DNA from: a virus
Reading direction: 5' to 3' (one strand)
Length of the DNA stretch: 36,955 nucleotides
Virus record (IMG/VR): IMGVR_UViG_3300031707_006564
Coordinates: 1-36,955 of that record
Part shown: positions 3,548 through 24,830 of the stretch, piece by piece
Position numbering within the stretch: the stretch's first letter is position 1
How the letters are laid out: each line of letters opens with the position of its first letter
Position numbers and translations under genes: made by a program
Notes under the pieces: model-generated
What the model was told of the DNA's origin: nothing
Seen by the model: the letters and a program-made list of their open reading frames with translations, nothing else
Database searches by the model: none

Positions 3548-3550
3548 CTC

Positions 3551-4793: not shown

Positions 4794-5234
4794 CTACTCG
4801 TATCTGTAGGCTTGATAGCGGTGTCCCTCTTCGTCCTTCTCGAAGTCTCCTTCCTCGGCTGCTTTGCCGTTGTCGTAGTCTCTGAATACAACGCTGACAT
4901 GATCCGGTCTGGCCACGAGGTCGGCCACTCCCCCATCGATCCGGATGATGACCTCTTGCTTGGGTGGCTCTGGCGCTGGCTGTCCATTGGTGTCCGGTAG
5001 CTCGATGACGGCCTTCTTCAACTGGTTTGCGGTGTGCCATGTCTCCAGGATCGCGTCGGCTATCAAGTCGGCTTGCTCGGGCAAGAATTCCAGCTTGACT
5101 ATGCACTTCGTCTTCTTCCCTTCCCTGGCTGCATCCCTGAAGTTCATGGCAAGGTGCCACATGTCGGGTATCGCGATGGTGCTCGGGTCCACCTTCTCGG
5201 GTTCGCCTGTCCTGGTGATGGTGATGCTCTTCAT
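4794..5234 (-). CDS. Hypothetical early protein
   Basis: This 146-aa protein has no family I can name. The middle section (KKTKCIVKLEFLPEQADLIADAILETWHTANQLKKAV) looks alpha/beta. The end, after a proline-rich linker, has EVIIRIDGGVADLV followed by HVSVVFRDYDN and an acidic tail; short beta-strand tails of this kind occur in other phage and plasmid proteins. The start at 5234 has an AAGGAG site and overlaps the preceding gene's stop as ATGA. It is cotranscribed with sbcD, separated by 43 bases. Confidence 0.75.
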   Translation of the reverse strand: MKSITITRTGEPEKVDPSTIAIPDMWHLAMNFRDAAREGKKTKCIVKLEFLPEQADLIADAILETWHTANQLKKAVIELPDTNGQPAPEPPKQEVIIRIDGGVADLVARPDHVSVVFRDYDNGKAAEEGDFEKDEEGHRYQAYRYE

Positions 5235-5620
5235 TTCTGATCGTCTCCTTCCGGCTGCTTCTCAGCCTGTTCTCTCTCCCTGGCGTTCATGGTCGCTGTC
5301 ATGTGGGCCTTCATGCCTCGGGCCTTCAGGCTCTTGGCGATTATCTGGTCTCGGTGTCGATAGATGGCCTGGGTCACTGCATCGGGTAGCCTGACGATGT
5401 GACTGCCCATGTCCTTGTCTATCCACTCAAGCTCTATCTGCCAGTCCTCGTCATGCCGTCTGGTTGTCAGGATGTACTTGATATGGCCTCGGAGGATTCC
5501 CCCTTCCACCATGGGAAGAGGGGCGATGATGATAGTCGGGCCACAACATAGCTCCCCTGGCATGAGTAGTTTCCTCGGGGTGCGCTTGGTCACTTTCTTC
5601 TGGCGTCTGGCTGTCTTCAT
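5231..5620 (-). CDS. Hypothetical basic early protein
   Basis: The product is 129 aa when started at 5620, where an AAAGGAG site and an ATGA overlap with the upstream gene support the ATG; the frame continues to 5671 without such signs. The N-terminus is strongly basic (MKTARRQKKVTKRTPRK), the middle has GPTIIIAPLP and a strand-rich segment, and the C-terminus is charged and helical. It could bind nucleic acid, but no family is recognised. Confidence 0.65.
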   Translation of the reverse strand: MKTARRQKKVTKRTPRKLLMPGELCCGPTIIIAPLPMVEGGILRGHIKYILTTRRHDEDWQIELEWIDKDMGSHIVRLPDAVTQAIYRHRDQIIAKSLKARGMKAHMTATMNAREREQAEKQPEGDDQK

Positions 5621-5784
5621 TCTCTCGCTGCTCCTTTCCATTTCTTCTCGTCGTCTTCTGTCTTCTGCCATGTCCAGAGGTCGGCTTGTTCCTCAAACTC
5701 GGCCCGCTCCGTTAGCCTTCCTGGGACGCTAGTGATTCGCCCATCGTCGGTGAAGGTAGCCTGCCTCACGAGCTTGGGCTTCAT
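5617..5784 (-). CDS. Small hypothetical early protein
   Basis: This 55-aa product starts MKPKLVRQATFTDD and ends in a charged tail with tryptophans and lysines. The start at 5784 overlaps the upstream stop as ATGA, and its own stop overlaps the next start as ATGA, which is the main reason to call it a gene. The first 20 residues look like two beta strands (RQATFTDDGRITSVPGR). Function unknown. Confidence 0.6.
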   Translation of the reverse strand: MKPKLVRQATFTDDGRITSVPGRLTERAEFEEQADLWTWQKTEDDEKKWKGAARE

Positions 5785-5987
5785 TGGCTGGCCTCTGCCT
5801 TGGCTGCTCTCGCCTTCTCGAAGGCGATGGTCGAAGGTAGCCAATACTGTTGCCTGATTGCCTTGGGGGTGTCTGGATGCCATCCCCATTTGATGCTCCA
5901 TCCTGGCTCCAGGGCCACGAGCCACAGATACCAGTCGCGTGTCTCGTCTAGTGTCCAGATTGGCTTGCCATTGATCCAAGTCGCCAT
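5781..5987 (-). CDS. Small tryptophan-rich hypothetical protein
   Basis: A 68-aa protein with seven tryptophans, for example IWTLDETRDWYLWLVA and WSIKWGWHPDTP, ending in an alanine/lysine helix. An AGGAGG site stands before the ATG, four bases after the upstream stop, and the stop overlaps the next start. No family is recognised; the size and place resemble the small accessory genes typical of phage early regions. Confidence 0.65.
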   Translation of the reverse strand: MATWINGKPIWTLDETRDWYLWLVALEPGWSIKWGWHPDTPKAIRQQYWLPSTIAFEKARAAKAEASQ

Positions 5988-5991
5988 TGTT

Positions 5992-6165
5992 CTATCTCCC
6001 TCCTGCCCTCTCTGCTATTTCCATCTTGCTTCGTAAGTGTGAGGTCAGGCAGTCCACATGCACCCTGACGGTGCGTCGCCTGTTCCTCTTGTCCGTGAAC
6101 GTGTATTTGGTGTTCCGGCCAAGCATTGAGGCTCTCAGATCGTAGCCACATAACCAGCACGTCAT
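5992..6165 (-). CDS. Small zinc-binding-type protein
   Basis: This 57-aa product starts at 6165 in an ATGA overlap with the upstream gene. It begins MTCWLCGYDLRAS and later has HVDCL, giving C-x2-C and H-x2-C pairs about 35 residues apart, which could form a single zinc site. The middle is basic (DKRNRRRTVR). It may bind nucleic acid; this is inferred from the motif only. The frame extends to 6327 but that part has no start signals and overlaps the neighbour. Confidence 0.6.
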   Translation of the reverse strand: MTCWLCGYDLRASMLGRNTKYTFTDKRNRRRTVRVHVDCLTSHLRSKMEIAERAGGR

Positions 6166-6353
6166 TGCTTGGCCTCGCTCATCTTTGCAGCTCTCAGACA
6201 TCGCTCTCTGATTCCGGCCAGTCGCTGTTCTTCGGGTACTGCAAGTGTTGCGACGCCGCCATAGGCTTGAACGATCAGACAGTGCTCCCTGGCTATCTTC
6301 ATGATCTGATCCCATGCCTTCCCGCACGCTTCATCATTCAGACACTCGATCAT
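6162..6353 (-). CDS. Small hypothetical early protein
   Basis: A 63-aa, mostly helical protein containing ACGKAWDQIMKIAREHCL and VATLAVPEEQRLAGIRERCLRAA. It starts in an ATGA overlap with radC, preceded by an AGGGGGA site, and ends in an ATGA overlap with the next gene, so it is coupled on both sides. No family recognised. Confidence 0.65.
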   Translation of the reverse strand: MIECLNDEACGKAWDQIMKIAREHCLIVQAYGGVATLAVPEEQRLAGIRERCLRAAKMSEAKQ

Positions 6354-6772
6354 CTGACTGTCCCCCTGTCCTTCAGGCTCACGGACATCTGGCTGCCATT
6401 CCCGACAATAACGTGATCGAGCACCTTGATCCCGATGATCTCTCCGGCATTGGTGATCCGGTTGGTTAGCTCTCGGTCGTCGGGGGATGGCTCGGGGTCT
6501 CCCGAGGGGTGGTTATGGGCGAGGATGATGCTAGAAACGCCCTTGAGGATCGCCAGTCTGAATGTCTCCCGAGGATGGCAGATGCAACTATCCAGGATGC
6601 CTAGTGCCACGAGGTCAACATACTTGATGGTGTTTCGGGTGTTGAGTCCGATAACCCACCAGTGCTCTTTCTCTCGGTCGGTCTTGCTCTCGGCCTTGAG
6701 TAGCGCTCTGATGATCTCGGCCACGTCTTCGGGGCGGGTGACCTGGGTTCGCTCTTTGACTCTCTGTAACAT
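6350..6772 (-). CDS. radC: RadC-like JAB/MPN domain protein
   Basis: The 140-aa protein is the MPN+ domain of the RadC family without the usual N-terminal helix-hairpin-helix part. The JAMM metal site is complete: H86-x-H88-x7-S96-x2-D99 within HNHPSGDPEPSPDD, and the C-terminal strand LDHVIVGNG is conserved in the family. RadC proteins are frequent on phages and integrative elements; a role in recombination or in countering host defence is suspected but unproved. It is the second gene of the early operon, behind ardC, with an AAGGAG site at the start. Confidence 0.9.
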   Translation of the reverse strand: MLQRVKERTQVTRPEDVAEIIRALLKAESKTDREKEHWWVIGLNTRNTIKYVDLVALGILDSCICHPRETFRLAILKGVSSIILAHNHPSGDPEPSPDDRELTNRITNAGEIIGIKVLDHVIVGNGSQMSVSLKDRGTVR

Positions 6773-6818
6773 CTCGTCGTCTCTCCTTTCAATCTTTCGC
6801 GTCGTTCGGCTCTCGTTG

Positions 6819-6844
6819 GAGTGGTGGCGCTGTGTCCACCACTC
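6819..6844 (-). other. Perfect hairpin between ardC and radC
   Basis: GAGTGGTGG and CCACCACTC form a 9-bp perfect stem with an 8-base loop in the only sizeable gap (87 bases) of the early operon. No T-run follows on the minus strand, so it is not a standard terminator. It may be an mRNA processing or stability element that sets the ardC to radC ratio. Confidence 0.5.
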
Positions 6845-6859
6845 GGGCGAGGGTCAAAC

Positions 6860-7849
6860 CTAGAACAAGCTCGGCTGAAGGGTGACAATCTCGGGCGCTG
6901 GTATCTCTACGGGCACGCTCTCGACGGTTGGCGCTGCTGTCGGTGCCTGGGCGGTGTGTTCCTGGGCTGTTGGCGCTTTGGCGGTCTGGGCCTGGGTGCC
7001 GCGGATGTGATCCACGGCCTTCTGTGCCTGGGCTGCTGCTGTCACGATCAGGCGCTTGTCATCCTGCAATCTCTTGAGCCAGCTTCTGATATACGCGGCG
7101 CTGTTCTCCAGTACGGTTGGCAGTATCCCGACTTCGTTTGACAGGAAACTCGCGCCCATCTCGGCCACCAGCTCTTCTTTGCTGTAGGTCTCACTCCCGA
7201 ACGCTGCCACTTCGTCTGTGTCAAAGCGGCCAAGCCTGCTCTTGTGTCCGGTGCTGTGCGTCAACTCGTGGAACAGGGTGCTGTAGTATTCCTCCGGCTT
7301 CTCGAAGCTCGTGCGGTGTGGCATGTTCACGGAGTCCATCGACGGCCTGTAATACGCTCTCGGCTCTCCGTGGGTGATCCTGGGCTTGTCCGCGTATCCC
7401 GCAACGATCTTCTCGGCCTCTTCCAGCACGTTGAAGGTCTTCTTCTCGGTCGCTGGTATGTGCTTGTCCAGTCCCTCGCATTGCTCCACGTTGAAGACGT
7501 TGTAGTATCTCAGCATGGGCACGCTGCGCATCTTCGGCGCTGTCTCGCTGTCCTCGTTCTCTGCCTTTGCCGGGCCATCAAAGAACTTCCAGAACACCAC
7601 CAGCGTGGACTTCTCCCCGGCCTTCACATTCCCGCCTAGCGCCTTGCATTGCTTGAAGCTCAACCAGTACGGGCTTTCGTATCCTCTGCCTGCCAGTAGC
7701 CAGACGTTGATGCCTCTGTATGCCTTCTTGCTCACGAGGTTCTTGGGCATTCCCTCGGCGCTGTTCCAGGGCTTGTGCCACGGGATTTCCCCACGCTCTA
7801 GCTGCTCGATGATCTGCGCTGTGACGATCTCATAGACTTTGCTGCTCAT
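6860..7849 (-). CDS. ardC: ArdC-like anti-restriction protein
   Basis: This 329-aa protein has the two ArdC parts: an N-terminal single-stranded-DNA-binding domain (EIVTAQIIEQLERGEIPWHKPW, then AYRGINVWLL) and a zincin-type metalloprotease domain with HELTHSTGHKSRLG at about residue 192, HExxH being the metal site. The C-terminus is a low-complexity alanine/threonine/proline tail. ArdC proteins protect incoming DNA against host restriction; they are common on plasmids and phages. It is the first gene of the minus-strand early operon, next to the promoter at 7912-7939, as expected for a protein needed at once after entry. Some relatives are parts of larger polyvalent proteins; this one stands alone. 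Confidence 0.9.
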   Translation of the reverse strand: MSSKVYEIVTAQIIEQLERGEIPWHKPWNSAEGMPKNLVSKKAYRGINVWLLAGRGYESPYWLSFKQCKALGGNVKAGEKSTLVVFWKFFDGPAKAENEDSETAPKMRSVPMLRYYNVFNVEQCEGLDKHIPATEKKTFNVLEEAEKIVAGYADKPRITHGEPRAYYRPSMDSVNMPHRTSFEKPEEYYSTLFHELTHSTGHKSRLGRFDTDEVAAFGSETYSKEELVAEMGASFLSNEVGILPTVLENSAAYIRSWLKRLQDDKRLIVTAAAQAQKAVDHIRGTQAQTAKAPTAQEHTAQAPTAAPTVESVPVEIPAPEIVTLQPSLF

Positions 7850-9461: not shown

Positions 9462-11045
9462 GTGACAACCGAAAGAGTCGAGAGACCTGAAGAGACAACC
9501 GAAGAAGAATATCAGGCGATAGAGTGGGCCAAGATCGGGGCCAACTTCCTCTATTTCCTGATGACTTATGTCAAGGTCATGGAGCCTCCTCCTGGCCGCG
9601 GGGTGATCTCCTTCGAGCTTTGGGGCCATTTGATCCATGTCATTGGCCTGCTCTTCAAGCATCCGAAGATAGTCATACTGAAGTCCCGGCAGGTGGGGTT
9701 GACGTGGTTGCTGGCCGCTTACGCCTTGTGGACGGCGATGACGAAACCGGGTGCCCGGGTGTTGATCCTTTCGAAGTCCAAGCTGGATGCCCAAGAGGTC
9801 ATTGAACGGGTCAAGTTCATTTACAGCCAACTGCCGAAGTGGATGCAGGTTACTATCACGACTGAGAACAAGGGCGAGTTGGAATTCAAGTCGATGATGT
9901 CGAAGATCAAGGCTTTCGCGTCGACGGAAGACGCCGGCCGATCTGAGACCGGCACTCTGGTTATCTGTGACGAGCATGACTTCCATCCTCATGCTGAGGC
10001 CAACTATGCGGCCTTGAAGCCGACGATTGACGCGGTGTATGCCGATGGAAGTCAGCCACAGATCATCTGCGTGTCGACCTCGAACAAGCTGGAGATCCTC
10101 ACTCAGTTCAAGACTCTCTACCGTGAGGCGAAGGCCGGCGCAAACAGTTTCAAGAACGTCTTCATTCCGTGGTGGTCGCGGCCTGGGCGGGACCGCAAGT
10201 GGTTCCTGCAACAGTGCAAGGACTTTGCCAAGACTCCCTGGCAGCGTGAGGGTGAGTATCCCGAGAATGAAGAGGAAGCTCTTTCGCCGCCGAGGGCCAT
10301 CGCTGCCTTCAACCAGGATTCTCTCAAGAACATGCTGGCCGATGTCCGAAAACCTCTACCTCGGATCGAAGGCGAGATGTACAGTCCTCTCATCAATCTC
10401 TACAAGAAATATGTTCCTGGCCGGACGTACACCGGTGGTATTGACACTGGGCATGGAGTTGGGCAAGACGAGAGTGTCTGCGCGGTCATGGACCTGCAGA
10501 CGATGGAAGTGGTGGCCGACATTCAGTCGTCCAGTGTCAATCCGAGGGACTTTGCGCGGATCTCGGTGCAACTGCTCAAGATGTATGAGACCGCCTGGGG
10601 TGGTGAACCGCTGGTGGGCGTGGAGAACAACGACTGGGGCCATGAGGTCATTCAGTACATGATGGACGAAGGCTACGGGAACTTCTTCTACATGGACTGG
10701 TTCAAGATTGGCAAGAGAGATGAGGAACGGAAGAAAGAGATCGGCTGGCACACGGCGCCGGGTGGGACCGACAGCGGCCGGTGGGTTCTCTGGGGTGATC
10801 TCGTTGACGCAGTTCCTGGCTTGATCGTCTACAACGAGAAGGGGCTGCAACAGTTCTTTGACATCATCCGGAATCCGGACAAGAACGGCAAGATCGAGGC
10901 TATCAAGGGATGCCACGACGACTACCCGATGGCTGTGGGTCTGGCGTGGCACATGCGGAAATACACCTACTTCGGACCGGCGCTCAATGACAAGGCCAGC
11001 CATTCCAAGAGCTACATGGTGTCCACTGGAAGAATCGGGAACTAG
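9462..11045 (+). CDS. terL: Terminase large subunit
   Basis: This 527-aa protein is the packaging motor and nuclease. The ATPase half has a Walker A-type SRQVGLTW (residues 75-82), a Walker B GTLVICDEHDF near residue 165 and a coupling region. The nuclease half has the RNase H-like acidic residues in GGIDTGHG (near 325), VGVENND (near 386) and CHDDYPMAVG (near 485). The start is GTG at 9462. It cuts concatemers or the pac/cos site and drives DNA into the prohead with the portal encoded next. Length is normal for the family. Confidence 0.95.
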   Translation: MTTERVERPEETTEEEYQAIEWAKIGANFLYFLMTYVKVMEPPPGRGVISFELWGHLIHVIGLLFKHPKIVILKSRQVGLTWLLAAYALWTAMTKPGARVLILSKSKLDAQEVIERVKFIYSQLPKWMQVTITTENKGELEFKSMMSKIKAFASTEDAGRSETGTLVICDEHDFHPHAEANYAALKPTIDAVYADGSQPQIICVSTSNKLEILTQFKTLYREAKAGANSFKNVFIPWWSRPGRDRKWFLQQCKDFAKTPWQREGEYPENEEEALSPPRAIAAFNQDSLKNMLADVRKPLPRIEGEMYSPLINLYKKYVPGRTYTGGIDTGHGVGQDESVCAVMDLQTMEVVADIQSSSVNPRDFARISVQLLKMYETAWGGEPLVGVENNDWGHEVIQYMMDEGYGNFFYMDWFKIGKRDEERKKEIGWHTAPGGTDSGRWVLWGDLVDAVPGLIVYNEKGLQQFFDIIRNPDKNGKIEAIKGCHDDYPMAVGLAWHMRKYTYFGPALNDKASHSKSYMVSTGRIGN

Positions 11046-11059: not shown

Positions 11060-12757
11060 GTGGCAACTGCAACAGAGGCAAAGATCACACCTGAAGATGC
11101 CTTGGCCAAGTACGAGATCAGCAAGAGGTACTATGCGGAGAGGGACCGGCGCATAGACACGGCCTGGGAATACTACTCGGGCCAGTACAAGATCAACGTG
11201 CCAGATGGTTTCGAGGCGTACATCGATCCCAAGATCAAGGGGATCATCGATGTGGACACCGGCCACATCATCACATCGAATCCGGTGGTCACGGTCCCGC
11301 CTTCCAAGAACACCAAAGAGGCAGAGAGGGCGGCTGACGTCAGGGAGAAGTTCCTGCAGGTGGCACTCACCAGACTGAGACGGAGCCTGACGCATGATCC
11401 GCTGAAGCGCGCTGCCAGTCATGGCTTCAAGTATGGTGTCTACTGTTTCAAGGGGCCACTCTATGACCCGAGTCTACTGAATCAGAGCAAGAAGTCCACC
11501 AATTCAGGCAATGCCAGTCAGTTCCGCTTTCCTATTATTGTGCAGGCCATCAATCCGAAGCGGATACTGCCAGAGCCTGGGGCGCTTCATCCGCGGTGGG
11601 TGTTCGAGCACTACAAGCGCAAGGTCTTCACGGTCAAGCGGAACTGGATCGATTTCAGGACTGACAAGAAGGATGACGAGGATGTCGACTGGGTTGAATA
11701 CTGGGATGAGTTCGTCCGGTTCTACTTTGCTGACGGCCAGTGCGTCTACAAGGTGCCGAACCTGTACGGCTTCATTCCCTACGAGATCGGCTTTGCCGGT
11801 ATGGGCGACGAGTCAGCCGATGGTCTGCCCGAGTGGGAGTCCATGGGCATCATCCATCCGGTGATTCCGACACTGAGAGCTCGGGCGCGGTCCCTCACGG
11901 CCCTCGATGCCTTGCTTCAGTGGGTGGCCTTTCCGGTGATTGCGTCTGACAAGCCGGTGGCCGGCCTGAACATTCGATTCATCCCTGGCCAGATCAACCA
12001 TCTTCCACCTGAGTTGAACATCAGGCCGTGGTACACGCCGACCATTCACCCTGACATGTACAAGTTCCTGTCGATGCTGGACGCCGACCTGGAGACGATG
12101 ACTCATGCCAGATCGGTTGAAGGGCAGCGGGACATCGGTGTGAACTCGGGGTACATGCAGAGCATGATGGTGGCTCAGGCCAGACTCCGGTATGAGGAAC
12201 TGATGAGCAATCTGGAGCACTCCATCGCCAACATCCTGGGGAAGATGCTCATGCTCATCGAGAACGTGATAGAGGAACCTCTGACCGTCTACGGCACGTT
12301 CGGCAAGGGTGACAGGAATGTGGCCTCCATTCAGCCGAAGGACATCAGCGGTCAATACTACTGCGAGGTCAAGCTCTCGGCTGTCGACACTGAGCTTCAG
12401 GACCGCAAGGCCATGCTCGGCTCGAAGCTCTACAAAGAGGGGCTCATCCGGCGACGCACAGCCATCGAGGACTACGTGGGCCGACCGAACGCAACTGAGG
12501 AAGAAGAGGGGATTCTGGTTGACAAACTGCTGGAACATCCGGCTGTGGCGATGGCGCAAGCTCAAGAGGTCGCCAAGGAAATGGGGTACACGGACATCAT
12601 CAACAATCTGACAAAGGGTACTCCGGGCGGTGGTTCGGGGGCCAACAATCAGCCGGTACAACCCGGTGGGTTGCCCTCGGTCAATGAGTTGCAGGCAGAA
12701 CTGGCCGGAACGAACAAACAACTGGAGGGAGAATATGGAGATCTCCAAGGTGCTTAA
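11060..12757 (+). CDS. Portal protein
   Basis: The 565-aa protein follows terL by 14 bases with a GGAAGGAGG site before a GTG start. It begins with a helical segment (KYEISKRYYAERDRRIDTAWEYYSGQY), contains the TGHIITSNPVVTVPP region and a long alpha-helical crown-type middle, and ends in a flexible glycine/glutamine tail. This is the usual layout of head-tail connector portals, which form the dodecameric ring for DNA entry. Direct position between terL and head genes supports the call. The last 23 bases overlap the next gene. Confidence 0.85.
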   Translation: MATATEAKITPEDALAKYEISKRYYAERDRRIDTAWEYYSGQYKINVPDGFEAYIDPKIKGIIDVDTGHIITSNPVVTVPPSKNTKEAERAADVREKFLQVALTRLRRSLTHDPLKRAASHGFKYGVYCFKGPLYDPSLLNQSKKSTNSGNASQFRFPIIVQAINPKRILPEPGALHPRWVFEHYKRKVFTVKRNWIDFRTDKKDDEDVDWVEYWDEFVRFYFADGQCVYKVPNLYGFIPYEIGFAGMGDESADGLPEWESMGIIHPVIPTLRARARSLTALDALLQWVAFPVIASDKPVAGLNIRFIPGQINHLPPELNIRPWYTPTIHPDMYKFLSMLDADLETMTHARSVEGQRDIGVNSGYMQSMMVAQARLRYEELMSNLEHSIANILGKMLMLIENVIEEPLTVYGTFGKGDRNVASIQPKDISGQYYCEVKLSAVDTELQDRKAMLGSKLYKEGLIRRRTAIEDYVGRPNATEEEEGILVDKLLEHPAVAMAQAQEVAKEMGYTDIINNLTKGTPGGGSGANNQPVQPGGLPSVNELQAELAGTNKQLEGEYGDLQGA

Positions 12758-12887
12758 ACAGGTTCAAGACAGAGCACAGGTGGTCGTAGACAGAGCGACT
12801 GAGGAATTGAAGTCCGACAATCCGAAGGCGCAGTACGGCAAGAGGCAAGACCGTCTACTGAAGAGGATAGGGAGACAAGATGGGTAG
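12735..12887 (+). CDS. Small coiled-coil protein between portal and giant gene
   Basis: A 50-aa product starting MEISKVLKQVQDRAQVVVD, overlapping the portal end by 23 bases and the giant gene start by 8 bases, with a GAGGGA site. It is almost entirely helical and ends in a basic stretch (GKRQDRLLKRIGRQDG). The nested overlaps argue for translation coupled to both neighbours. It could be a connector-associated or head-assembly peptide; no family is recognised. Confidence 0.65.
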   Translation: MEISKVLKQVQDRAQVVVDRATEELKSDNPKAQYGKRQDRLLKRIGRQDG

Positions 12888-15800
12888 TCCACTGTCAACT
12901 GATACCACCACCATTATCAAGAAACCGAAGACGTTCACTCTGCCATTTTCCGAGTTGGATACAGAACTGGTTGTCTCTCCATCCCCCACACCGGCTGCGA
13001 GTACACCGGAGCCCACACCGGCTGCTGGTACTCCCGAGGCTTCCTGGCTGACGGAGTGGCGACAGGGCCAGACAGCCGAGACCGATACCATGAAGGCCGG
13101 TTATGAGGCTGATCTGACCAAGGAAGTGACTCCCTGGGAAGACTTGGCCAAGAGTAGCAGGTGGCTCTCTTCAGAAGAGTACCAGAATGTTGTTGCGGCC
13201 AAGAGCTATGACATAGCTCGGAAGCAGGAGATAGCCGACTGGTACAAGGAACAGACGACAGCACTGGAGACTCAGGGAGATGAACTCAAGGGTGTCCAGC
13301 AGCTACAAGAGAATGTTGATCTTCAGTCCACAGTCCTCACCATCAACTTGAATGACCTCAATACCGAGTTGCAGAAACCGACATCGCTGGATGCGGTGCA
13401 GGCCAAGGCCAGTGATTTTGTGACTCAGGTAGAGAAACAGAGGGCCAGTCTGACTGCATATCGGGACTGGCTTAGGGCTCAGGGGACGACGGCAGAGGCT
13501 GAGATTGCCCAGGCCAAGACTCAGGGACTTCCCGAGGACCAATGGGTCAGCACTGATGACCGGATCCGTGATCTGGACAAGTTGATCCAGTGGGCCGCTG
13601 ATGTCCAGGTGCAAGCATCAGCGAAGTCGTCCGGACCTACCTGGAGACCATGGACTTCGCAGTTCTGGAGAGAGCGCGCTCTCGGCTTCATGGTCAATAC
13701 GGCACTGCCAAAGCTGGAATGGGTAGACACCACTTGGTCTATCTTCGCGGCACAGTCACTCCAACGCATTAACGATAGCTTGCCTGGGGACTATGGTCTC
13801 TTCCTTGGCAAAGGAGAGCAACTCTTTGGAGCCACTGGCGAACTCATGGAGATGGAGAACGGTAAATTCGTTCTCAAACCTTGGGAAGCAGAGGCGCACG
13901 AGATATGGAAGGCGACGGCTGATCCGGCTGCTCAAAGCACACTGGCCATACTCAATCCAGCTTGGTTCATTCCTCTTGATAGGGTGGGGCAAGGAACGTT
14001 GAAAGGGCTGGAAGCAGCGACGCGAGGGGGAAAGGTAGGGGGAGAGTATGGGGGCAGTCTGCTTGCGCGACTCGCCTTGAGGGGAAAAGAGCTTGACACT
14101 CTGGCGACTGAGGCTGGACTGGAACTCCGTGGCTTCAAGAATGTGGTACAGATCACTGGCCGGACTCCGGGGCTTATCGAACACTACCTGCCACAGATCG
14201 TCAAGGCTACTCAGATCGGGGTCAGGACAGTCTATCTGCCGGTCGAGGCAGTCTCCCGCATCACACTACAAGCCATTCACATAGCCGGTGCGCTTGGCAA
14301 GGGGTTGGTGGCATTCGGCTGGAAGCTGGCTACTCTGCCATTCAAGGTAGCCGGTTGGGTCTTCTCTCGCGCTGTCTGGCGTCCGGCGATATCGCAGTTG
14401 GGCAAGCTGGCGATCCCTGAGTCCATGAGAACTCTGGCCACAAACTCCGGCTTCGAGGTGTCCTTCCTGCCCAAAGGGGAAAAGGTGGGCAAGGGTATGC
14501 TCTACCGTGTCAAGGAAAAGGTGTCGGGACTGGATGTGCTCGTGAAGGATGAGGATGAGTTTATCAGTCTGGTCAATACCGGCGAATTGATGCCAGTGGC
14601 GAGGGAACGGTTCTTTGTTGAACAGACAGGGCAAGTCCTCAGTCATAAACAATATCTTGAGACTCCGGTAGCGGGGAACATCTGGGCTGAGAGATCATTC
14701 CGGCTGGCGACGAAACCGGATGGCATGAGCACCGATATCTGGAAGAAGGGATTTCAAGCCTTCCGTGTGGACTCCATGAAGAAGATGGTCGAGCCGGTCC
14801 AGATGATGGACCAGTTCCCGACCATTGAGAAGTTCATTCAGACGGCTCCTGCAGAGACACCCCTTCGCCGGGTACTGGCCACGTTGGTCAACAAGGAATG
14901 GGCACAAGGACACATGCGCGGGGTTCCCGGTCTTCGCCGGCTTATCATGTCACTTGATCCGGTGGCCAGTGATATCGCTCGGGCTGCTCAGGGATGGCGC
15001 AACATGCAAGAGGCGCTGGAGATGTGGAAGACTGGGCAACTGGCGGCAGCAAGGCGCTGTGAGAGATTCGAGGTCCAGGTTCTGAAGCGGGACATCGGCA
15101 AGGGTGAGACCATCACAGATCTGGTGGTCAAGAACGTCCAGGCGCGAGACAACAAGTCCATCGCGTACATTGGCGATGCTCTGGAGCATCCCGAGAGATT
15201 CGTGATGAGCGATGAGTTGCGGGTGGCTCGTGATATCTACTGCCAGATCATTGATGAGGCGAGAGCCGGCCTTCAGAAGTACGGGGTAGACGTGAAGGAG
15301 CTTATCTTCGAGGGTGAAGGTCACTACTTCCCGCGGTACGTCCTGGGAAAGAACGGCAATCTCATCAATGCCAGCGGGCCGCGTCCTGGCGGGGGATTCA
15401 TGACGAAGGCGACCTTTGAGAAGACGCGAGTCTTTGACGAAATGTCCGAGGGTATCCAGAAAGGATACATCTATGAGGGAGACCCTCTCATAGTGCTGGA
15501 TGCACACCTGAGTGCGTCTATCAAGCGCATGGCCGACCAGGAGTTCTACCGCATGATGAAACCGTATGGCATGACTGAGGTAGAGATTGTGGAACGCTTG
15601 GCGCCAGGGTTGAGGGCGATGGCCGACGCCGGCAAGGTGAAACTCCGGGCGATGACCAAGATCGACGAAATGGTCAAGCTCATATCAGTGGTAGAGCCTC
15701 ATAGTGCATTCAAAGGTTCGACCATGAGGTTCATCCGCAAGTATGCTCCTGACGTGTGGTCCGAACTCAGGTCGGTCCGGACGCAGGCCACGGCTGAAGA

Positions 15801-18800
15801 AAAGGCGCTGAGGTCTACCCTGGAACGATACGGCACCACCTTCAAGGAAATGAAGTGGCGGCTGGAGAGTCTACAGAGTGCCAAGGTCGCTGCCGAAGGG
15901 CAAGCCGTTGCTGCAACTGAAGAGACTCGTCAGGCTATCGAGGAACTGACCAGGGTACTCAACGAGCTTGCCGAGAAACCGCTGGCTCAATTCCCCACGG
16001 AAGAGAAGCTACGAGACATCCTGGCGCTACTGCCAGATGAACTCAAGAGTGAGTGGAACTCATCTGTGAAGATGCTGTACGACGATGCCTCGACTGTCGC
16101 AGCGGGGTATGAGGCCGAACTTGAAACGGCTATCGAGTCCCTCAAGGATGATCCTATCTACAGTCGGACGGTGAAGTACGGCCGGACGACTGTCAAGAGG
16201 GTCAAGGATGGCAAGAATGTCATTGAAGCTGGCGCCACACGCAATGTCAATCTCCCGGGCCTCCTGTTGAAGCGATCCGGCAAGGATGCGGGGATGATCC
16301 CTGAGACCATCACCATTGAGCAATATCGTTCTCTCTATGGTAAGGAGCCAAACCAGTCTATTCTCAAGCAAGTGGGCAAAGAGAAGCGCGTCATGTCCGA
16401 GTACGCCTTTGACGAGATAGCCGAGGAATTCGGCATCTCGTCTGACGAGTTCGTCCGGCGCATCAATGACTATCCTCGACTTCAGGGGGACATCTGGGGA
16501 TTGACCAGAGATTCGCAGATGGCCAACGAAGCGGCTGAACGCCTGGCGGTGGTCTATCGAGTCTTCAAGGAAGATGAGGCTGAGGTCGCGGCTGCAATCA
16601 AGGCCGTAGAGACTGGCGACTATGCCAAGCCGTTTGCGGAAGTAGCCAAGCCCAAGCCGGAAGTGCCAGAGGTCAAACTGCCTACCCAAGAGCCAGGAAT
16701 GCCAGAGGCCGGCGTCCAGTCCGACATCTTCGGCAGCACGAAGGTAGTCAGGCCGGAAGGCAAGGGCGAGGTCGTCCAGGGCAACATGGAAGACTTGGCG
16801 AAGTACCAAGAGGCGATGAAGGGGAAACCAGTCGAACCCACTGCAACCGCAGTAGAGACTACTGCAAAGGTAACTCCCGAACCTGCTGCCACTCCCAAAA
16901 CTGGTACGACCGAACCCAAACCAGAGGCCACCTTCACTCCGAGGCCAGAGGCGCCAGAGGTCAAGCCGTCAAAGGACTGGTGGGATAAGGTCCGGCTGAT
17001 GGCTGAGAACAGACTGAAGGACGCGAGAATAAGACAGGCTCGGATGGAAGCTGATCTAGCTGCTGTCAGGGCCAGGGCCAAGCATCCCGATCCGTTCGGT
17101 AGTGGTCAGCTATTCCAGGGCGAGAAGGGCATGATGGTCAGAGGCACCTACGCCTTCCAGGGCACATGGTTCCCTGAGACGGTGGCCACTGCCATTGAGA
17201 AGCAACTGGGTGATGTTGGCCTCAAGTGGGTGCGGGGGATATCGGATGTTAGTGGTGTGGCCAGAATGTTGATGACTGGTTTGGACTTCGGCGGTGGCAT
17301 GATCCAGGGACTTCCGGTGCTGCTCATGCGTCCAGACGTATGGTTCGATGCACAGAAAGAAGCATTCAAGAGCTTAGGCAATCCCAAGATGGCCTATGAG
17401 TATCTCAATTCTCCGGCAAGCCGTGAGGTAATCAGAGAGACCATCGTGGCCGGAAAACCCCTGGTCGTCAACATGAGTGAATTCACCGAGACGATGGGTG
17501 GGGGTGGTCTGATGGGGAAGCTGGTCTCTCAACCGGGACTGAAGCAAACAGCACGTCCGGTATTCGAGCGTGCGGCATTGTCCTTTGATACCTTCGGGAC
17601 GGTGGCCAGAATCGAGATGTACAAGGGACTGAGGCCACTGGCCAAGACTCCCCAGGACTTGCTTGACTTGATCGACTTCGTGAACAAGATGACTGGTGTT
17701 CGATCCGGAGTGGTGGCGGGTGCCACGCAGAGACAGATCGAGGGATCACTACTTCTCTTCGCTCCACGGTACTTCCGAGCCACCGTCTCCCTCATGTTCG
17801 ATGTCTTCCGAGGGGGACTCAAGGGGCAACTGGCTAGGCGCATGATGGGTTCCATGCTGGCCGGTGGGTCGCTCTTCTATTACGGTGCTTGCAAGGCACT
17901 CGGTCAAGAGCCGAACTTTGATCCGCGGTCGAGCAAGTTCCTGACCGTCGAGATAGGCGGGAGTCACATCGGTTTCGGTTCTATCTGGGTATCGATGGCA
18001 AGAATGTTCGCCGGGGTGGTAGCAACTGCATCTGACAAGCCAGGGGATCTGCTGAAGATGAGCCGCGTTGATAATCCGTTGGCCAAGTTCATAGCAGGCC
18101 GTCTGGCCCCGCTGACTGGATCAGCCATGGACATCATCCTGGGCAAGACCTACATCGGAGAGAACCTGGAGTCCAAGGATGGCTTCCTGGGGAAGAATTG
18201 GGCTGCTATCGGGAAAGAGGTCATAGCTCGAAACCTCTTGCCATTCTGGTTGGATGCTCAACTGAACTCGAATCCACGTCCCGGCCTGTCTTCGGTTCCG
18301 GCTGAGATGATGGGTCTCCGGTCTTGGGCACTGCAACCGTGGGAGAAGCGCAACAAGCTCAGGGACTTCTACGCCATGCAAGAGTTCGGCGTCACATGGG
18401 AACAACTGCGACAGGAAAAGCCCTCGAAGAACGCGAAAGCGGCCATGGCTTCGACTTGGGGTGTGGATGCTCAGAAGTACCTGGAAGGGAGTCACAGTGA
18501 CCTTGCCTCAGTCAGTACAGAGGCAAGGCAAGCCGTCCTGAAGAGAGGCATGGCTTTCGATGCACTCTACGAGGAATGGTCCGGCCAGTTCGTGACTGAG
18601 AATGAGCGTGTGGCCACTCTCCTGCAGAGAGCCTCCGATGAGTTCAAGTACAACATCTCCCTGAGAGACCGGCTGAATGCTGGCGATACTACGCTGACTG
18701 CTGACGAACAGAACAAGGCGCAGACTGCCGGCCAGATATTCCGTGATACTGTTGGCCAAGTCAGAGACAACCATCGGTACTGGCGCGAGGCCATACAGGG

Positions 18801-19566
18801 CGACACGAAGTACAAGGAAGTCTATGACCAGCTTGATAAGTGGAAGGAAGAGGGCGCCGACTCCCTGGAGAAGCAGGGGATCACTGAGTACGTGGGTGAC
18901 AGAGCCTATCAAGCCTACATCTCCCTGATGTATGAGGGCACTGGTCTTGAGGATCAGTTCGGCAAGTTCGACTATGACGAGTATGACCGTCGCAAGACCG
19001 AGTGGCTCTCGACTTGGGGGACGGACATGTGGGACTACTGCCAGAAGCGTCTATCTGCTGGCAAGGAAGAACCAGCCATTGTGTCTGAACTCCGGAAGGC
19101 TCGACAGACACTCAAGCCGTACTGGGAGATGCAGGACAAGATCACTCAGAAGCTCCAGGGGAAGTATCCGCAATCTGACGAAGAGAAGCAGGTCATGATG
19201 CGAAACGAGTTGACGAACAGGATCAACAAGATCAGCACAGGGATGGGCGATCTCTACGCCAAGGATCCCGAGATGCTTGGCTCCATCTGGCGCACCACTG
19301 GCGGGAAGATGTGGAAGGGGATCATCGCCAAGATTCGAGCACAGGTGGGCAGTGACATCATGGTACTCGATACGGCTGTCCAGAAGGCCAGAGACCAGAT
19401 GCGGCATGACAACCCCGATATCGACTTCTACCTGAGACTGTTCTATGACCGGAAGGCTCTTGATGAGACTGAGGCCACGAGTTTCCTGAACATGGCGAAT
19501 CCGTACAGTCAATCCACAGGGCCACAGCCGTCTTACGTGCCACTGGCTTTGTCGGCGGCAATGTAG
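12880..19566 (+). CDS. Giant 2228-aa virion-type (polyvalent-like) protein
   Basis: The largest gene of the window lies between portal and scaffold, where a minor head or internal virion protein is expected. The N-terminus is proline-rich (residues 20-60) with helical segments after it. Residues about 470-520 contain amphipathic or hydrophobic helices (ALGKGLVAFGWKLATLPFKV). The middle is long and charged, and residues 1250-1370 are a proline/glutamate-rich linker. Around residues 1610-1700 a helical region (QRQIEGSLLLFAPRYFRA, GSMLAGGSLFYYGACKALG) resembles the LPD38-type domain of large polyvalent phage proteins. The rest is helical. Such proteins are packaged and ejected with DNA. I see no clear enzymatic motif. 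It is not an ordinary tape measure by position or composition, though that remains an alternative. Confidence 0.75.
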   Translation: MGSPLSTDTTTIIKKPKTFTLPFSELDTELVVSPSPTPAASTPEPTPAAGTPEASWLTEWRQGQTAETDTMKAGYEADLTKEVTPWEDLAKSSRWLSSEEYQNVVAAKSYDIARKQEIADWYKEQTTALETQGDELKGVQQLQENVDLQSTVLTINLNDLNTELQKPTSLDAVQAKASDFVTQVEKQRASLTAYRDWLRAQGTTAEAEIAQAKTQGLPEDQWVSTDDRIRDLDKLIQWAADVQVQASAKSSGPTWRPWTSQFWRERALGFMVNTALPKLEWVDTTWSIFAAQSLQRINDSLPGDYGLFLGKGEQLFGATGELMEMENGKFVLKPWEAEAHEIWKATADPAAQSTLAILNPAWFIPLDRVGQGTLKGLEAATRGGKVGGEYGGSLLARLALRGKELDTLATEAGLELRGFKNVVQITGRTPGLIEHYLPQIVKATQIGVRTVYLPVEAVSRITLQAIHIAGALGKGLVAFGWKLATLPFKVAGWVFSRAVWRPAISQLGKLAIPESMRTLATNSGFEVSFLPKGEKVGKGMLYRVKEKVSGLDVLVKDEDEFISLVNTGELMPVARERFFVEQTGQVLSHKQYLETPVAGNIWAERSFRLATKPDGMSTDIWKKGFQAFRVDSMKKMVEPVQMMDQFPTIEKFIQTAPAETPLRRVLATLVNKEWAQGHMRGVPGLRRLIMSLDPVASDIARAAQGWRNMQEALEMWKTGQLAAARRCERFEVQVLKRDIGKGETITDLVVKNVQARDNKSIAYIGDALEHPERFVMSDELRVARDIYCQIIDEARAGLQKYGVDVKELIFEGEGHYFPRYVLGKNGNLINASGPRPGGGFMTKATFEKTRVFDEMSEGIQKGYIYEGDPLIVLDAHLSASIKRMADQEFYRMMKPYGMTEVEIVERLAPGLRAMADAGKVKLRAMTKIDEMVKLISVVEPHSAFKGSTMRFIRKYAPDVWSELRSVRTQATAEEKALRSTLERYGTTFKEMKWRLESLQSAKVAAEGQAVAATEETRQAIEELTRVLNELAEKPLAQFPTEEKLRDILALLPDELKSEWNSSVKMLYDDASTVAAGYEAELETAIESLKDDPIYSRTVKYGRTTVKRVKDGKNVIEAGATRNVNLPGLLLKRSGKDAGMIPETITIEQYRSLYGKEPNQSILKQVGKEKRVMSEYAFDEIAEEFGISSDEFVRRINDYPRLQGDIWGLTRDSQMANEAAERLAVVYRVFKEDEAEVAAAIKAVETGDYAKPFAEVAKPKPEVPEVKLPTQEPGMPEAGVQSDIFGSTKVVRPEGKGEVVQGNMEDLAKYQEAMKGKPVEPTATAVETTAKVTPEPAATPKTGTTEPKPEATFTPRPEAPEVKPSKDWWDKVRLMAENRLKDARIRQARMEADLAAVRARAKHPDPFGSGQLFQGEKGMMVRGTYAFQGTWFPETVATAIEKQLGDVGLKWVRGISDVSGVARMLMTGLDFGGGMIQGLPVLLMRPDVWFDAQKEAFKSLGNPKMAYEYLNSPASREVIRETIVAGKPLVVNMSEFTETMGGGGLMGKLVSQPGLKQTARPVFERAALSFDTFGTVARIEMYKGLRPLAKTPQDLLDLIDFVNKMTGVRSGVVAGATQRQIEGSLLLFAPRYFRATVSLMFDVFRGGLKGQLARRMMGSMLAGGSLFYYGACKALGQEPNFDPRSSKFLTVEIGGSHIGFGSIWVSMARMFAGVVATASDKPGDLLKMSRVDNPLAKFIAGRLAPLTGSAMDIILGKTYIGENLESKDGFLGKNWAAIGKEVIARNLLPFWLDAQLNSNPRPGLSSVPAEMMGLRSWALQPWEKRNKLRDFYAMQEFGVTWEQLRQEKPSKNAKAAMASTWGVDAQKYLEGSHSDLASVSTEARQAVLKRGMAFDALYEEWSGQFVTENERVATLLQRASDEFKYNISLRDRLNAGDTTLTADEQNKAQTAGQIFRDTVGQVRDNHRYWREAIQGDTKYKEVYDQLDKWKEEGADSLEKQGITEYVGDRAYQAYISLMYEGTGLEDQFGKFDYDEYDRRKTEWLSTWGTDMWDYCQKRLSAGKEEPAIVSELRKARQTLKPYWEMQDKITQKLQGKYPQSDEEKQVMMRNELTNRINKISTGMGDLYAKDPEMLGSIWRTTGGKMWKGIIAKIRAQVGSDIMVLDTAVQKARDQMRHDNPDIDFYLRLFYDRKALDETEATSFLNMANPYSQSTGPQPSYVPLALSAAM

Positions 19567-19723: not shown

Positions 19724-19770
19724 GCACAGCGAACCTTAACAACCGCATATTGGGCTGACTGAACGACAGA

Positions 19771-19807
19771 GGCATTTTGGCCGTAAGGCCGGGGTGCCTT
19801 TTTTTTA
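19771..19807 (+). terminator. Rho-independent terminator with wobble stem
   Basis: GGCATTTTGGCC pairs with GGCCGGGGTGCC (12 bp, four central G-U wobbles) around a GTAA loop of GNRA type, followed by a run of T (TTTTTTTT). It ends the 43-aa gene unit and lies 30 bases before the scaffold gene, so late transcription must read through it or restart. Confidence 0.9.
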
Positions 19808-19837
19808 TTCAGGAATTGAAGGAGGAAACCCCAAATC

Positions 19838-20587
19838 ATGGACCCAGAAAAACCATCGGAAGAAGCCCAGAAGACTGACCAACCAGCTTCACAGACTCCT
19901 AGCCAGAGTACACCTCCGGCAGAGCCAGCGAAGCCAGCGGGGGGGTCTACACCTGCGGCAGTTCCCGAAGGCGGCAAGCAGCCGGACCTTGAGAACAAGC
20001 TCAAGACCTTCGAGGGAATACTGAAGGCCACACAGAAGGAGAGCGAGGGTTACAAGAGGACGATCACAACGCTCACCGAGAAGCTAGAGGCCAACGAGAA
20101 GGACCTCGGAGAAGCACTCGAAGCACTGTCCAAGAACGCAACTTCGGAACCTCCCCAAGAGGAAGAACCCAAACCTGGAGAAAGGCCGAATGCACTGGCG
20201 GGAATCCTGGACAGGCGCAGACAGAGAGAAGCTGAGACCAAAGCCAAGGCGACAACGGGGAACGCATCAGCGACAGTGCGCTTCGTGGCTCTCGTCGAGG
20301 GAGCCGGACTGGACTTGAATGATCCGCGGCTGGCAGAGGCCAAGGCTGCCGCTACTCCTGAAGAGGGGATAGAGGTAGCCAAGAAGATCCTCAAGGACAT
20401 CCGAGAGACCGAGCGCAAGGGCAACGATGACCGCTTCAACCAGTTGTCGGGACAGGTCAAGGAACTCAAGGAAGGGATGTTGAGGGTGGATACCTCCGGC
20501 CCAAGCGGTGGGGTGGTCCCGCAAGGGACACCATACGACCTGGCGGTTGCTGCGTATTCGAGCAGCAACAAGGCGAAACGAAACTGA
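19838..20587 (+). CDS. Scaffold protein
   Basis: The 249-aa protein directly precedes the major capsid gene. It is acidic and low-complexity at the N-terminus (proline/serine/glutamine), then has a coiled coil (residues about 50-100, ENKLKTFEGILKATQKESEG), a second helical stretch and a small C-terminal segment ending in a basic tail. Those are the usual features of phage scaffolds that organise capsid assembly and leave the prohead. No protease gene is seen nearby. A strong AAGGAGG site precedes the start. Confidence 0.8.
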   Translation: MDPEKPSEEAQKTDQPASQTPSQSTPPAEPAKPAGGSTPAAVPEGGKQPDLENKLKTFEGILKATQKESEGYKRTITTLTEKLEANEKDLGEALEALSKNATSEPPQEEEPKPGERPNALAGILDRRRQREAETKAKATTGNASATVRFVALVEGAGLDLNDPRLAEAKAAATPEEGIEVAKKILKDIRETERKGNDDRFNQLSGQVKELKEGMLRVDTSGPSGGVVPQGTPYDLAVAAYSSSNKAKRN

Positions 20588-20602: not shown

Positions 20603-21568
20603 ATGGCCGGTACATACACACTGGCTGATCTTAGCAAACTGGAGAAGGACACTCTGCGGAAGTCCGTCATCGACGGTCTACTGATGGAGTGCGACCTGAT
20701 GCAACTCGTGCCTTGGGAGACTCTTAACCAGTTGAGTACCACCATCGTCCGATATTCGGAGATCCCGAGCATTGGCTTCCGAAAGATCAACGAGGGGTAC
20801 GCTGAGGGCTCCGGCAAGACCGAGCAACTGACTGAGCAGATCAGCGCGATGGGTCGGAACATAGACACCGACAAGCTCATCGTGGCCACCAAGAACACCA
20901 TAGCCGAAGCGCGCGCTCTGCGGCAGGCACAGGTGCTCAAGGGCGTGGCCTACACGTTCAACGACAAGTTCATCAATGGTAGCCGGGTGACTACTCCCAC
21001 GGAGTTTGATGGCCTTCTCTACCGGCTCGACCAGGGGCCGGCAGCGCAGAAGATCACTGCCTCGTCTGCCTCGGGTGGACTCGCTGTCATGGCCGATACA
21101 GCGGGGATGAACACCTTCCTGGACAAGCTGGACGAACTGATCTACGCCATCGATGGCCACAGGCCGGATGCCCTGCTGATGAACAAGACTGCCCTACTCA
21201 AGACGCGCTCGGTTCTCCGCAGACTGGGTTTGCTGTCCCAGACCAAGGACATGTTTGGCCGGACCATTGACATGTACGGCACAGTCCCGTTGTACGACAT
21301 CGGGGTCAAGGCCGACCAGAGCACGCTCATCATCACCAATGGCGAGACCGGCTCCGGTGGTGGCACCGCGCAGTGCACGTCGATCTACGCGGTCAAGTTC
21401 GGGATAGGCGAGCAGTTCTGGGGCATTCAGACCTACCCGATCGATGTCAATGACAAGGGCCAACTGGAAGATGGGGTTACGTACAGAACGGTGGTCGATT
21501 GGCCTCTGGGCTTCGCCAACGCCGGCCGAAGGTCGATAGCCAGACTGTACAGCCTCTACTTCGCATAG
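20603..21568 (+). CDS. Major capsid protein
   Basis: The 321-aa protein follows the scaffold gene and has an HK97-type order: an N-terminal helical arm, then TTIVRYSEIPSIGFRKINEG and EQLTEQISAMGRNIDTDKLI, which match the region of the E-loop and spine helix, and P-domain-like GHRPDALLMNKTALLKTRSV. The C-terminus has VKFGIGEQFWGIQTYPIDV, typical of capsid A-domain strands. An AAAGGAG site sets the start. It should form the icosahedral shell. Expression is expected to be the highest of the late genes. Confidence 0.85.
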   Translation: MAGTYTLADLSKLEKDTLRKSVIDGLLMECDLMQLVPWETLNQLSTTIVRYSEIPSIGFRKINEGYAEGSGKTEQLTEQISAMGRNIDTDKLIVATKNTIAEARALRQAQVLKGVAYTFNDKFINGSRVTTPTEFDGLLYRLDQGPAAQKITASSASGGLAVMADTAGMNTFLDKLDELIYAIDGHRPDALLMNKTALLKTRSVLRRLGLLSQTKDMFGRTIDMYGTVPLYDIGVKADQSTLIITNGETGSGGGTAQCTSIYAVKFGIGEQFWGIQTYPIDVNDKGQLEDGVTYRTVVDWPLGFANAGRRSIARLYSLYFA

Positions 21569-22784: not shown

Positions 22785-24830
22785 ATGAAGCAGGTCATTC
22801 CGGGTGGCAACAATGATGCTCTGAGCAACTCAGCCACCGAGTACAACAGCCTGATGGGTGGTGGGGCTTGGGACTCCACTCAAATCCGGTCCTATCAGGT
22901 CATCCCAACTGGCGGCACCCTGCGTAAGCTGCGGATCAAGCTGAGTGCTGCTCCTACCACTAACCCTTACGTCCTCACCATCATGAAGAACGGGTCAGCT
23001 ACCACGTTGACCTGCACGGTAGCTGTTGGGAGTACCACTGCTGAGGACAGTACGCATGAAGTCACCTTTGCAGCGGGAGACTATGTAACCATCAGGTCGT
23101 CCTACAGTTCTGCTCCTGGCAACACGCCATCTGCCCAATGGTCAACTGAGTGGGAAGGCAGCACTGCGGGAGAGTACATCATCCTGGGCAATGGTTATCG
23201 CAGCACAGCCACATCCTACTACTGTGGCATCTACAATTCCTCCAAGATTGCGATCTATACCGCAGAGTACCAGTCCACCCGCAACCTCATGTATCCTGCC
23301 GGGACCTACAAAAAGTTCTACGGCTATCTCAGTATTCAGCCATCCAGCGGGTTAGTGCTTACGCTCCGGAAGGACGGCGTTGACACCACCCAGACCTTCA
23401 CCATATCCGGCACCAGCCAGACTGGCAACGACACTACCCATATGACATCAGGCAGCGGTATAGACGGCTGGAGCATCAGCTTCGTAGAGAGCGGTAATGT
23501 GGCCGCCTGCTACATGGGATGGGGTCTGGTCTTCTGCCCTACCACAGATGGGGATATCCCGTTTAGCGGCAACTTCCCGGGGCCGAGTGCTGACAATCAA
23601 TACCACTATCTGCTTGGCACCAAACCAACGGATAGCTGGTTGACGGTGGATGCGCCACGCCTGATAACTTCTGCGATGACTCTGAAGGCAATGGACGTTG
23701 ACCTCAACGCCAAATGTGGTGCGGGAGCCAGTGTTATCTTCACGGTCTACAAGAACGGCTCTGCCACAGCCATGACCGTAAGTTGCCCTGATAACTACGG
23801 CGGTGAGTATACAGGGGATGTCTCAGTCGAGGCTGGCGATGTCCTGTCTCTCAGGTACGACGAGACTGGTACTCCTACTACTCGCCCCAGTGTATGTATC
23901 GGCATCCTGGCACGGATGGTGGCAAACACCGCAAAGTCAGTCACAGATTCCCTGGCCGTCTCTGAGGGCCTGAGTATCAAGGCAAGGATGTCACTTGCCG
24001 ATTCCCTGGCCGTCTCTGAGGCCTTGGCAGTCCGTGTCAAAGCAGCGATAGCTGACAGTCTGGCTATCTCTGAGAGTCCGGGAATCCACGTCCACGCTCT
24101 CGTCGCCGATTCTCTGGCTATCTCTGAGAGCCTGGGGATCAAGGTGAAGGCGCTCATCACGGATACCATTGCTCTCTCCGAGGCACTGAGTATCCATGTT
24201 CACGCTCTCGTCGCCGATACGCTGAATATCTCCGAGATGGTCACGAGGCTCAACGGCAATATCCAGAAGCTGGTAACTGACGCTCTCTCTATCGCCGAAA
24301 GCATCTCTGTCAGTGCTCACTTGAAAGTCTCGGATTCCCTGACTCTGGCTGAAGTCCTGGGGATCAAGGCATGGCTGGCCATGGCTGACTCACTCTCTCT
24401 CAGTGACGCCCTGGCCCTCAAGGCGTGGCTTCGTATCACAGATATGCTCTCGGTGAATGAGAGCCTGAACGCCAAGGCGTTGGTCAAAGTTCAGGACTCG
24501 ATGACTCTGGCTGAGGTCCTGGGAGTCAAGGCATGGCTCAGTATCACAGACTCGCTCTCTGTGACTGATGCCGTGGCTCTCAAGGTGACGGTCAAGGTCC
24601 TGGATTCTCTCACCATAAGCGAGGCGCTGGCGCTACTGCAAAAGATCAAGGTAACAGACTCGCTGGCTATCAGTGAAGTCATAGATGTAGATGAGGTCAT
24701 ATTGATGATCCTCAACATGATCCTGGGGGCCGATCTCGACCTATCGATGAGCACTCGCTCAGACCTCGAGCTCTCTATGGGGCTGAGGTCCGACCTCGAA
24801 CTGGCCATAGCCTTTGAAGGGGGTGCCTAG
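22785..24830 (+). CDS. Tail fibre/adhesin-like protein with 18-residue repeats
   Basis: The 681-aa protein has two parts. Residues 1-380 are strand-rich with repeated jelly-roll-like modules (GGTLRKLRIKLSAAP, LTIMKNGSATTLTCTVA, then LTLRKDGVDTTQTF and FTVYKNGSATAMTVS, a module seen three times). Residues about 385-650 are about fourteen 18-residue repeats of the type ADSLAISESLGIKVKALV, varying in the last third. The end is a short acidic segment. This fits an adhesin with a fibrous stalk, likely exposed on the particle. A GGGGCGAA sequence precedes the ATG. Receptor and partner are unknown. Confidence 0.75.
   Translation: MKQVIPGGNNDALSNSATEYNSLMGGGAWDSTQIRSYQVIPTGGTLRKLRIKLSAAPTTNPYVLTIMKNGSATTLTCTVAVGSTTAEDSTHEVTFAAGDYVTIRSSYSSAPGNTPSAQWSTEWEGSTAGEYIILGNGYRSTATSYYCGIYNSSKIAIYTAEYQSTRNLMYPAGTYKKFYGYLSIQPSSGLVLTLRKDGVDTTQTFTISGTSQTGNDTTHMTSGSGIDGWSISFVESGNVAACYMGWGLVFCPTTDGDIPFSGNFPGPSADNQYHYLLGTKPTDSWLTVDAPRLITSAMTLKAMDVDLNAKCGAGASVIFTVYKNGSATAMTVSCPDNYGGEYTGDVSVEAGDVLSLRYDETGTPTTRPSVCIGILARMVANTAKSVTDSLAVSEGLSIKARMSLADSLAVSEALAVRVKAAIADSLAISESPGIHVHALVADSLAISESLGIKVKALITDTIALSEALSIHVHALVADTLNISEMVTRLNGNIQKLVTDALSIAESISVSAHLKVSDSLTLAEVLGIKAWLAMADSLSLSDALALKAWLRITDMLSVNESLNAKALVKVQDSMTLAEVLGVKAWLSITDSLSVTDAVALKVTVKVLDSLTISEALALLQKIKVTDSLAISEVIDVDEVILMILNMILGADLDLSMSTRSDLELSMGLRSDLELAIAFEGGA

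Follow-up and report, generated by a model that had tools for sequence, protein, structure and literature searches.

The DNA considered here, called the window throughout, is the whole 36,955-nucleotide stretch of a linear virus contig (IMG/VR record IMGVR_UViG_3300031707_006564). On its plus strand one frame free of stop codons, beginning with ATG, runs from position 12880 to 19566 and encodes a protein of 2228 aa, referred to below as the giant. It takes up 18.1% of the window, as a preliminary description made from the letters alone had put it (nearly a fifth), and is preceded by a GGGAG ribosome-binding site, read directly from the sequence at 12870–12874 (plus strand), 5 bases 5′ of the start codon. 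Judged by sequence comparison, the frame is not a product of chance, because dozens of virus contigs related to it have a homologous giant in this slot; from the single open frame and these syntenic homologues it is annotated here as a putative internal core/ejection protein.

The gene starts 122 bp after a portal-like gene and ends 271 bp before a putative scaffold gene, and all four of its named neighbours are on the plus strand. Upstream are the terminase large subunit (TerL, 9462–11045; phrog_2, 4.6e-33; PF03237) and the portal-like protein of 565 aa (11060–12757), whose label combines its position with an SU10_portal match that stays short of the threshold (E 0.01 in one scan and 7.6e-4, under the cut-off, in another). 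Downstream lie the putative scaffold (19838–20587), named from its position directly before the capsid gene and from matches of coiled-coil type only in Pfam and PHROGs, and the major capsid protein (MCP, 20603–21568; phrog_212 major head protein, 1.3e-57; PF20911, 2.1e-13). The placement between portal and scaffold given in the preliminary description holds as to position, while the labels of both neighbours are weak. The window genes that were scanned gave no clear sign of a tape measure, tail tube or tail chaperone, the best of their weak tail-type matches having an E-value of 0.0038.

A possible 45-aa ORF with a GTG start (12750–12887) spans the gap between the portal-like gene and the giant and overlaps each of them, and at 19760–19810, between the giant and the next gene, a G+C-rich inverted repeat is followed by a T run (noted by eye, unscored), as if a transcription unit ended with the giant. 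Elsewhere in the window, the left arm (565–7849, minus strand) encodes SSB, an SMC/Rad50-like protein and a metallophosphoesterase (an SbcCD-like pair), RadC and ArdC, and 22785–24830 encodes a protein of 681 aa with a degenerate repeat of the DSLAVSEALAV type making up its C-terminal half. A 1427-aa protein (31202–35485, minus strand) with WGSSSSDVFAVG-type repeats, an Ig-like match, a weak PEGA match and a hydrophobic C-terminal end adjoins the integrase (35882–36955) and has the look of a passenger gene product, a surface protein of host type.

Within the giant, the proline-rich linkers of the preliminary description were recovered on the plus strand at aa 21–60 (12940–13059), with at least 7 prolines in 40 residues, and, by proline content, at aa ~1241–1360 (16600–16959). 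The hydrophobic helices it also mentioned were not borne out in the membrane sense, since no segment reached a Kyte–Doolittle score of at least 1.6 (shuffled mean 1.4) and two reached 1.3; on this scale the giant has fewer hydrophobic segments than shuffled sequence.

Direct searches with the giant returned nothing from Pfam or PHROGs, in which no enzyme domain, peptidase family, polymerase domain or MuF domain was recognised, nor from tblastn against phages (50,697 records) and plasmids (72,556 records), nor from peptide scans of viral and genome contigs. By sequence it has no credible similarity to any chain among the solved structures. A scan for relatives of the TerL also returned nothing.

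Relatives in a fixed gene slot

Relatives were reached through the MCP, which gave four related contigs at first; MCP profiles then gave 44 and later 62 loci. No host genome with an MCP profile match was found. In a census of 64 loci (designated by L numbers), which includes one locus, L015, fetched by its giant and not by its MCP, as well as the near duplicates L035/L036, L029/L030 and L067/L068, 32 have a complete ORF of 1302–2584 aa upstream of the MCP and in 8 this ORF is cut by a contig end; 21 have too little upstream sequence and 3 have no large ORF. Where more than 3.3 kb precedes the MCP (43 loci), the slot therefore holds a large ORF in 40 cases, and in the three without a giant the MCP match itself is only 25–31% over less than half its length.

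The giants are homologous in a mosaic fashion. With low-complexity sequence masked, blastp connects 30 of 31 giants at 1e-5; a cut-off of 1e-15 leaves two groups, with L022 and L052 apart from them, and which segments match varies from pair to pair. In an alignment of 27 giants, the others are 12–25% identical to that of the window. Its closest ties are with the L029 giant, which it matches over aa 747–1229 and 1267–2052, viz. a mid segment (aa 747–1229, 15118–16566, plus strand; blastp, 1.35e-15), partly homologous to the L016 giant as well, and a C-terminal half (aa 1426–2052, 17155–19035, plus strand; ~25% identity, 6.7e-42). The matches to L016 span aa 780–966 and 1449–1830. The best conserved core, aa 1454–1768 (17239–18183, plus strand), carries an LLLFAPRYF motif and is common to L016, L018, L024 and L029 in alignment; against the profile of the L018/L024 pair it gave an hhalign probability of 98.4%. 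L018 is in turn linked to the clade of L017, the relative whose fold was modelled, with a probability of 99.9%, over another segment than its window match. The tie between the window giant and the L017 clade is therefore indirect, because it runs through different domains of L018, and profile comparison of the window mid region with the modelled region of that clade gave no signal.

Scans with the L029 and L016 giants returned only those same viruses, and the L017 and L006 giants had no match in the 50,697 phage records. No published description of the family was found in the literature searched, which lay mostly outside subscription journals. This is a fast-changing family, so far found only in uncultivated viruses.

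Exchangeable inserts and a C-terminal box in the family

Several relatives carry recognisable domains. An ART-PolyVal domain is present in the L017 giant at aa ~810–918 (2.4e-12, and 2.5e-10 on a second scan), and the L047 giant has a ParB-like match (2.9e-11). HExxH occurs in 12 of 37 giants, whereas 200 shuffles averaged 0.9 and never exceeded 4, and 11 of the 12 sites fall at aa 943–1224 of their giants. The 8 of these 12 segments that were scanned had no match to Pfam peptidases, and from the motif a zincin is a candidate in these giants. A GNAT domain was suspected in the L006 giant and was unconfirmed when the segment was scanned; GNAT matched in 1 of 23 members scanned (7.8e-4).

The L005 and L014 giants each have an intein-type insert, placed identically within a conserved core motif, with a Pfam intein match (4.8e-5) in one of six members scanned. 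The genes concerned lie at 5267–11659 in L014 and 3–2825 in L005, and the shared site is in a YPFW/TYESQRW motif. Inteins tend to occupy essential conserved sites.

The LPD38 domain (PF18857) was matched in one of 28 records at E 10, in the giant of L022 (8.3e-44). L022 (IMGVR_UViG_3300048878_000193) is a close relative of the window phage, with an MCP 54% identical and the LPD38 giant in the same slot. This giant is cut at one end of the contig and a 1512-aa frame with an ART-PolyVal match (2.1e-10) stands at the other; if the genome is circularly permuted, both may belong to a single gene. The LPD38-like region that the preliminary description had seen in the window giant is plausible by eye in its core; it gave no PF18857 match at E 10, and profile–profile comparison (hhalign), with a probability of ~1% or less, ruled the homology out. 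Nor did Pfam, PHROG and motif scans find ART-PolyVal, a ParB-like domain, HExxH or an intein in the window giant.

A box close to the C-terminus, R..YR..NP..DA.L.FWG, is common to giants from groups that cannot otherwise be aligned. The corresponding regular expression, which was written with the sequences in view, the window's included, and is to that extent not independent for the window, matches 19 of 39 giants (two near-duplicate viruses among them) against 0.05 in shuffled sets. The box lies 44–70 residues from the end of the giant, with the exception of L022 (202 residues). Several control ORFs that also matched represent the 3′ part of a giant truncated by the contig end, as judged from their position (starting at base 1–3 of the locus, before the MCP). 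Profiles trained without the L022 copy found it at 5.6e-7, 3.3e-7 and 4.3e-5, and at 0.17 when clade A alone was used. The window copy, ARDQMRHDNPDIDFYL (aa 2171–2192, 19390–19455, plus strand), is the weakest of the family-wide motif; it aligns with the L029 copy, but profiles built from other copies miss it (E 0.86 and E 19). The box may be a packaging or docking tag.

Predicted fold and known counterparts

The model of the window core, built from five sequences, had a pLDDT of 37 and was used for no structure search. For the L017 giant, the C-terminal 900 aa, modelled from 10 sequences, gave a pLDDT of 67.8 and a pTM of 0.37. When this model was compared with predicted viral structures using Foldseek, rank 1 was Internal virion protein D (E 5.5e-3, probability 0.96), and internal virion/core proteins took ranks 1, 4, 5 and 13 of the 180 viral matches, compared with ranks 12, 14 and 15 for tape measures; none of the 180 had an E-value below 1e-3, and TM-scores were low. 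The preliminary description had set its reading against a clear structural match to a tape measure, which was not seen with the model of this relative. Against solved structures, Foldseek returned no E-value below 1e-3 and no phage core protein among 46 matches.

VIA-align, run with the same model against 448 solved chains, placed phage core or ejectosome proteins in the top three positions, i.e. 8vb2_A of the PhiM1 ejectosome (Z 8.4, rmsd 4.5, 199 residues), 9jyy_I of the T7 core (Z 7.3, rmsd 6.0, 200 residues) and 9vvp_W of the E1004 core (Z 6.4, rmsd 5.4, 187 residues), the next chain being unrelated (Z 5.5), with the caveat that for helical proteins a Z below ~13 can arise by chance. All three alignments fall on residues 79–347 of the model (~200 of 900 residues), and that three phage core proteins should meet on the same stretch is telling, tempered by this warning. 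We have moderate confidence that the L017 giant, as modelled, matches T7-type internal core proteins best, and the window giant may share the fold of this relative.

The likeness to the T7 gp16-type proteins (8vb2, 9jyy, 9vvp) lies in their being large and helical and the best match to the C-terminal 900 aa of L017. Unlike them, the giants are encoded next to the portal gene and not before a tail fibre gene, are 1.3–2.6 kaa long with variable inserts, and lack credible sequence similarity to the solved chains.

With tblastn, relatives of the L022 giant among LPD38 proteins were located in 52 phage records. In HTVC034P and ct8d5349 an internal virion protein B-like gene and a second gene stand directly upstream of the LPD38 gene, and a tail fibre gene lies downstream of it. 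In the gene order of T7 this position is the gp16 slot. The LPD38 proteins PTXU04 gp25, JC1 gp69, Bacillus phage Page gp20 and HTVC034P gp44 resemble the giants in size and late-gene setting, but the window giant has no LPD38 match and is not joined to them by profile comparison. JC1 gp69, with LPD38 at residues 4195–4401, was found in purified virions (51 unique peptides; PMC9144972), and PTXU04 gp25, a relative of the L022 giant, is required for plaque formation (PMC11879866). The virion RNA polymerase gp50 of N4 is a giant single chain, described as 'beads on a string', that is carried in the head and ejected (PMC12633501), but it differs from the window giant in its polymerase domain, none being recognised in the latter.

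Proposed function of the giant

The reading we favour, with a probability of roughly 0.6, is that the giant is an internal core/ejection protein of a short-tailed phage which doubles as a carrier of exchangeable effectors. It starts from the gene itself, its fixed slot, the homology of the family and the swapping of domains in relatives, all of which are observed, together with the moderate fold match of one relative to T7-type core proteins, and it would place the protein in the virion, have it ejected into the host and give its phage a short-tailed, podovirus-like morphology. Further points in its favour are the position of the LPD38 genes in HTVC034P and ct8d5349, the presence of JC1 gp69 in virions, the need for PTXU04 gp25 in plaque formation and the lack of clearly recognised tail genes among those scanned in the window. 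Counting against it are the poor model of the window core, the limited extent and significance of the L017 fold match, the profile comparisons that join the window giant neither to the modelled L017 region nor to LPD38, its few hydrophobic segments and its weak C-terminal box. Made next to the portal, the giant would probably sit inside the head, against the portal's inner face, and on infection would travel down the tail into the host. Its helical, conserved parts would act like a T7 gp16-type core protein that aids DNA and protein across the envelope. The variable middle, in the window copy flanked by the proline-rich linkers, would be a slot for lineage-specific effector inserts, such as the ADP-ribosyltransferase, the ParB-like domain and the HExxH sites, which could self-process the chain. 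Effector activity may extend to the window copy, in which no known enzyme domain was found and whose middle may hold an unrecognised domain or none.

The enzyme-type swappable inserts of relatives, the LPD38 domain of the L022 giant and the mosaic, fast-changing sequence of the family would also suit a pure anti-defence cargo of the polyvalent kind, packaged like P1 DarB or JC1 gp69 and without a structural role in ejection. We regard this as unlikely, though the best placed of the alternatives: no effector was recognised in the window copy, the modelled relative is helical with core proteins as its best match, and an essential core is suggested because the giant is nearly always present in its slot (40 of 43) and an intein sits at a conserved core site in two members. 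Phage polyvalent proteins, as defined by Iyer et al. 2017 (PMC5512222), combine at least two domains of disparate activity in a chain, are encoded among late virion genes and are delivered with the DNA. The window giant has the late setting, between the portal-like gene and the MCP gene, but no two such domains; some relatives carry at least one. The polyvalent kinship proposed in the preliminary description consequently stands at the level of the family, through the ART-PolyVal domain of L017, LPD38 of L022, the ParB-like match of L047 and the HExxH motifs, and not for the window protein itself. The further argument drawn there from free-standing ArdC and RadC carries little weight, ArdC being present in 1 of 28 records, many of them fragments, namely in the window alone, and fused RadC being placed only in polyvalent proteins of conjugative elements (PMC5512222).

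It is less probable still that the giant is a head-assembly protein which stays in the head, be it a MuF-like minor head protein, a protease–scaffold fusion or a portal chaperone. Its slot after the portal gene is that of the MuF/SPP1 gp7 minor head proteins, and Rowa and Dogfish, whose MCPs are related, have a maturation protease or a protease–MuF fusion in the giant's position; yet MuF (PF04233) was found in 0 of 28 records at E 1, with control genomes positive, the window giant matched no protease family, and the size and mosaicism of the giants are unusual for such proteins. A tape measure moved upstream in a long-tailed phage is very improbable, for, although tape measures are among the weaker structural matches of L017 and phages with tape measure genes include some with related MCPs, a tape measure gene would be expected after tail tube and chaperone genes, none of which was clearly recognised, the giant lies between the portal and capsid genes, and core proteins outrank tape measures in the L017 model.

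Returning to the core/ejection reading, a bolder version, which we put forward as doubtful, is that in a clade of uncultivated phages one giant, portal-coupled chain has replaced the separate core and ejection proteins and is both a DNA-entry machine and an exchanging weapon rack. It would consist of a gp16-like helical chassis, of which LPD38 would be a divergent version, an effector slot in the middle with self-processing HExxH inserts, and the C-terminal box, which would dock to the portal or scaffold for packaging. If true, the core/ejection reading would link two subjects so far treated separately, polyvalent effectors, known mostly from domain analysis, and the proteins that physically make up the core and ejection apparatus in short-tailed phages. 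With its gene slot constant and its domains swapped naturally many times, the family would make the packaging and injection of proteins of more than 2000 residues testable, and with it the question of which anti-host domains travel in the virion.
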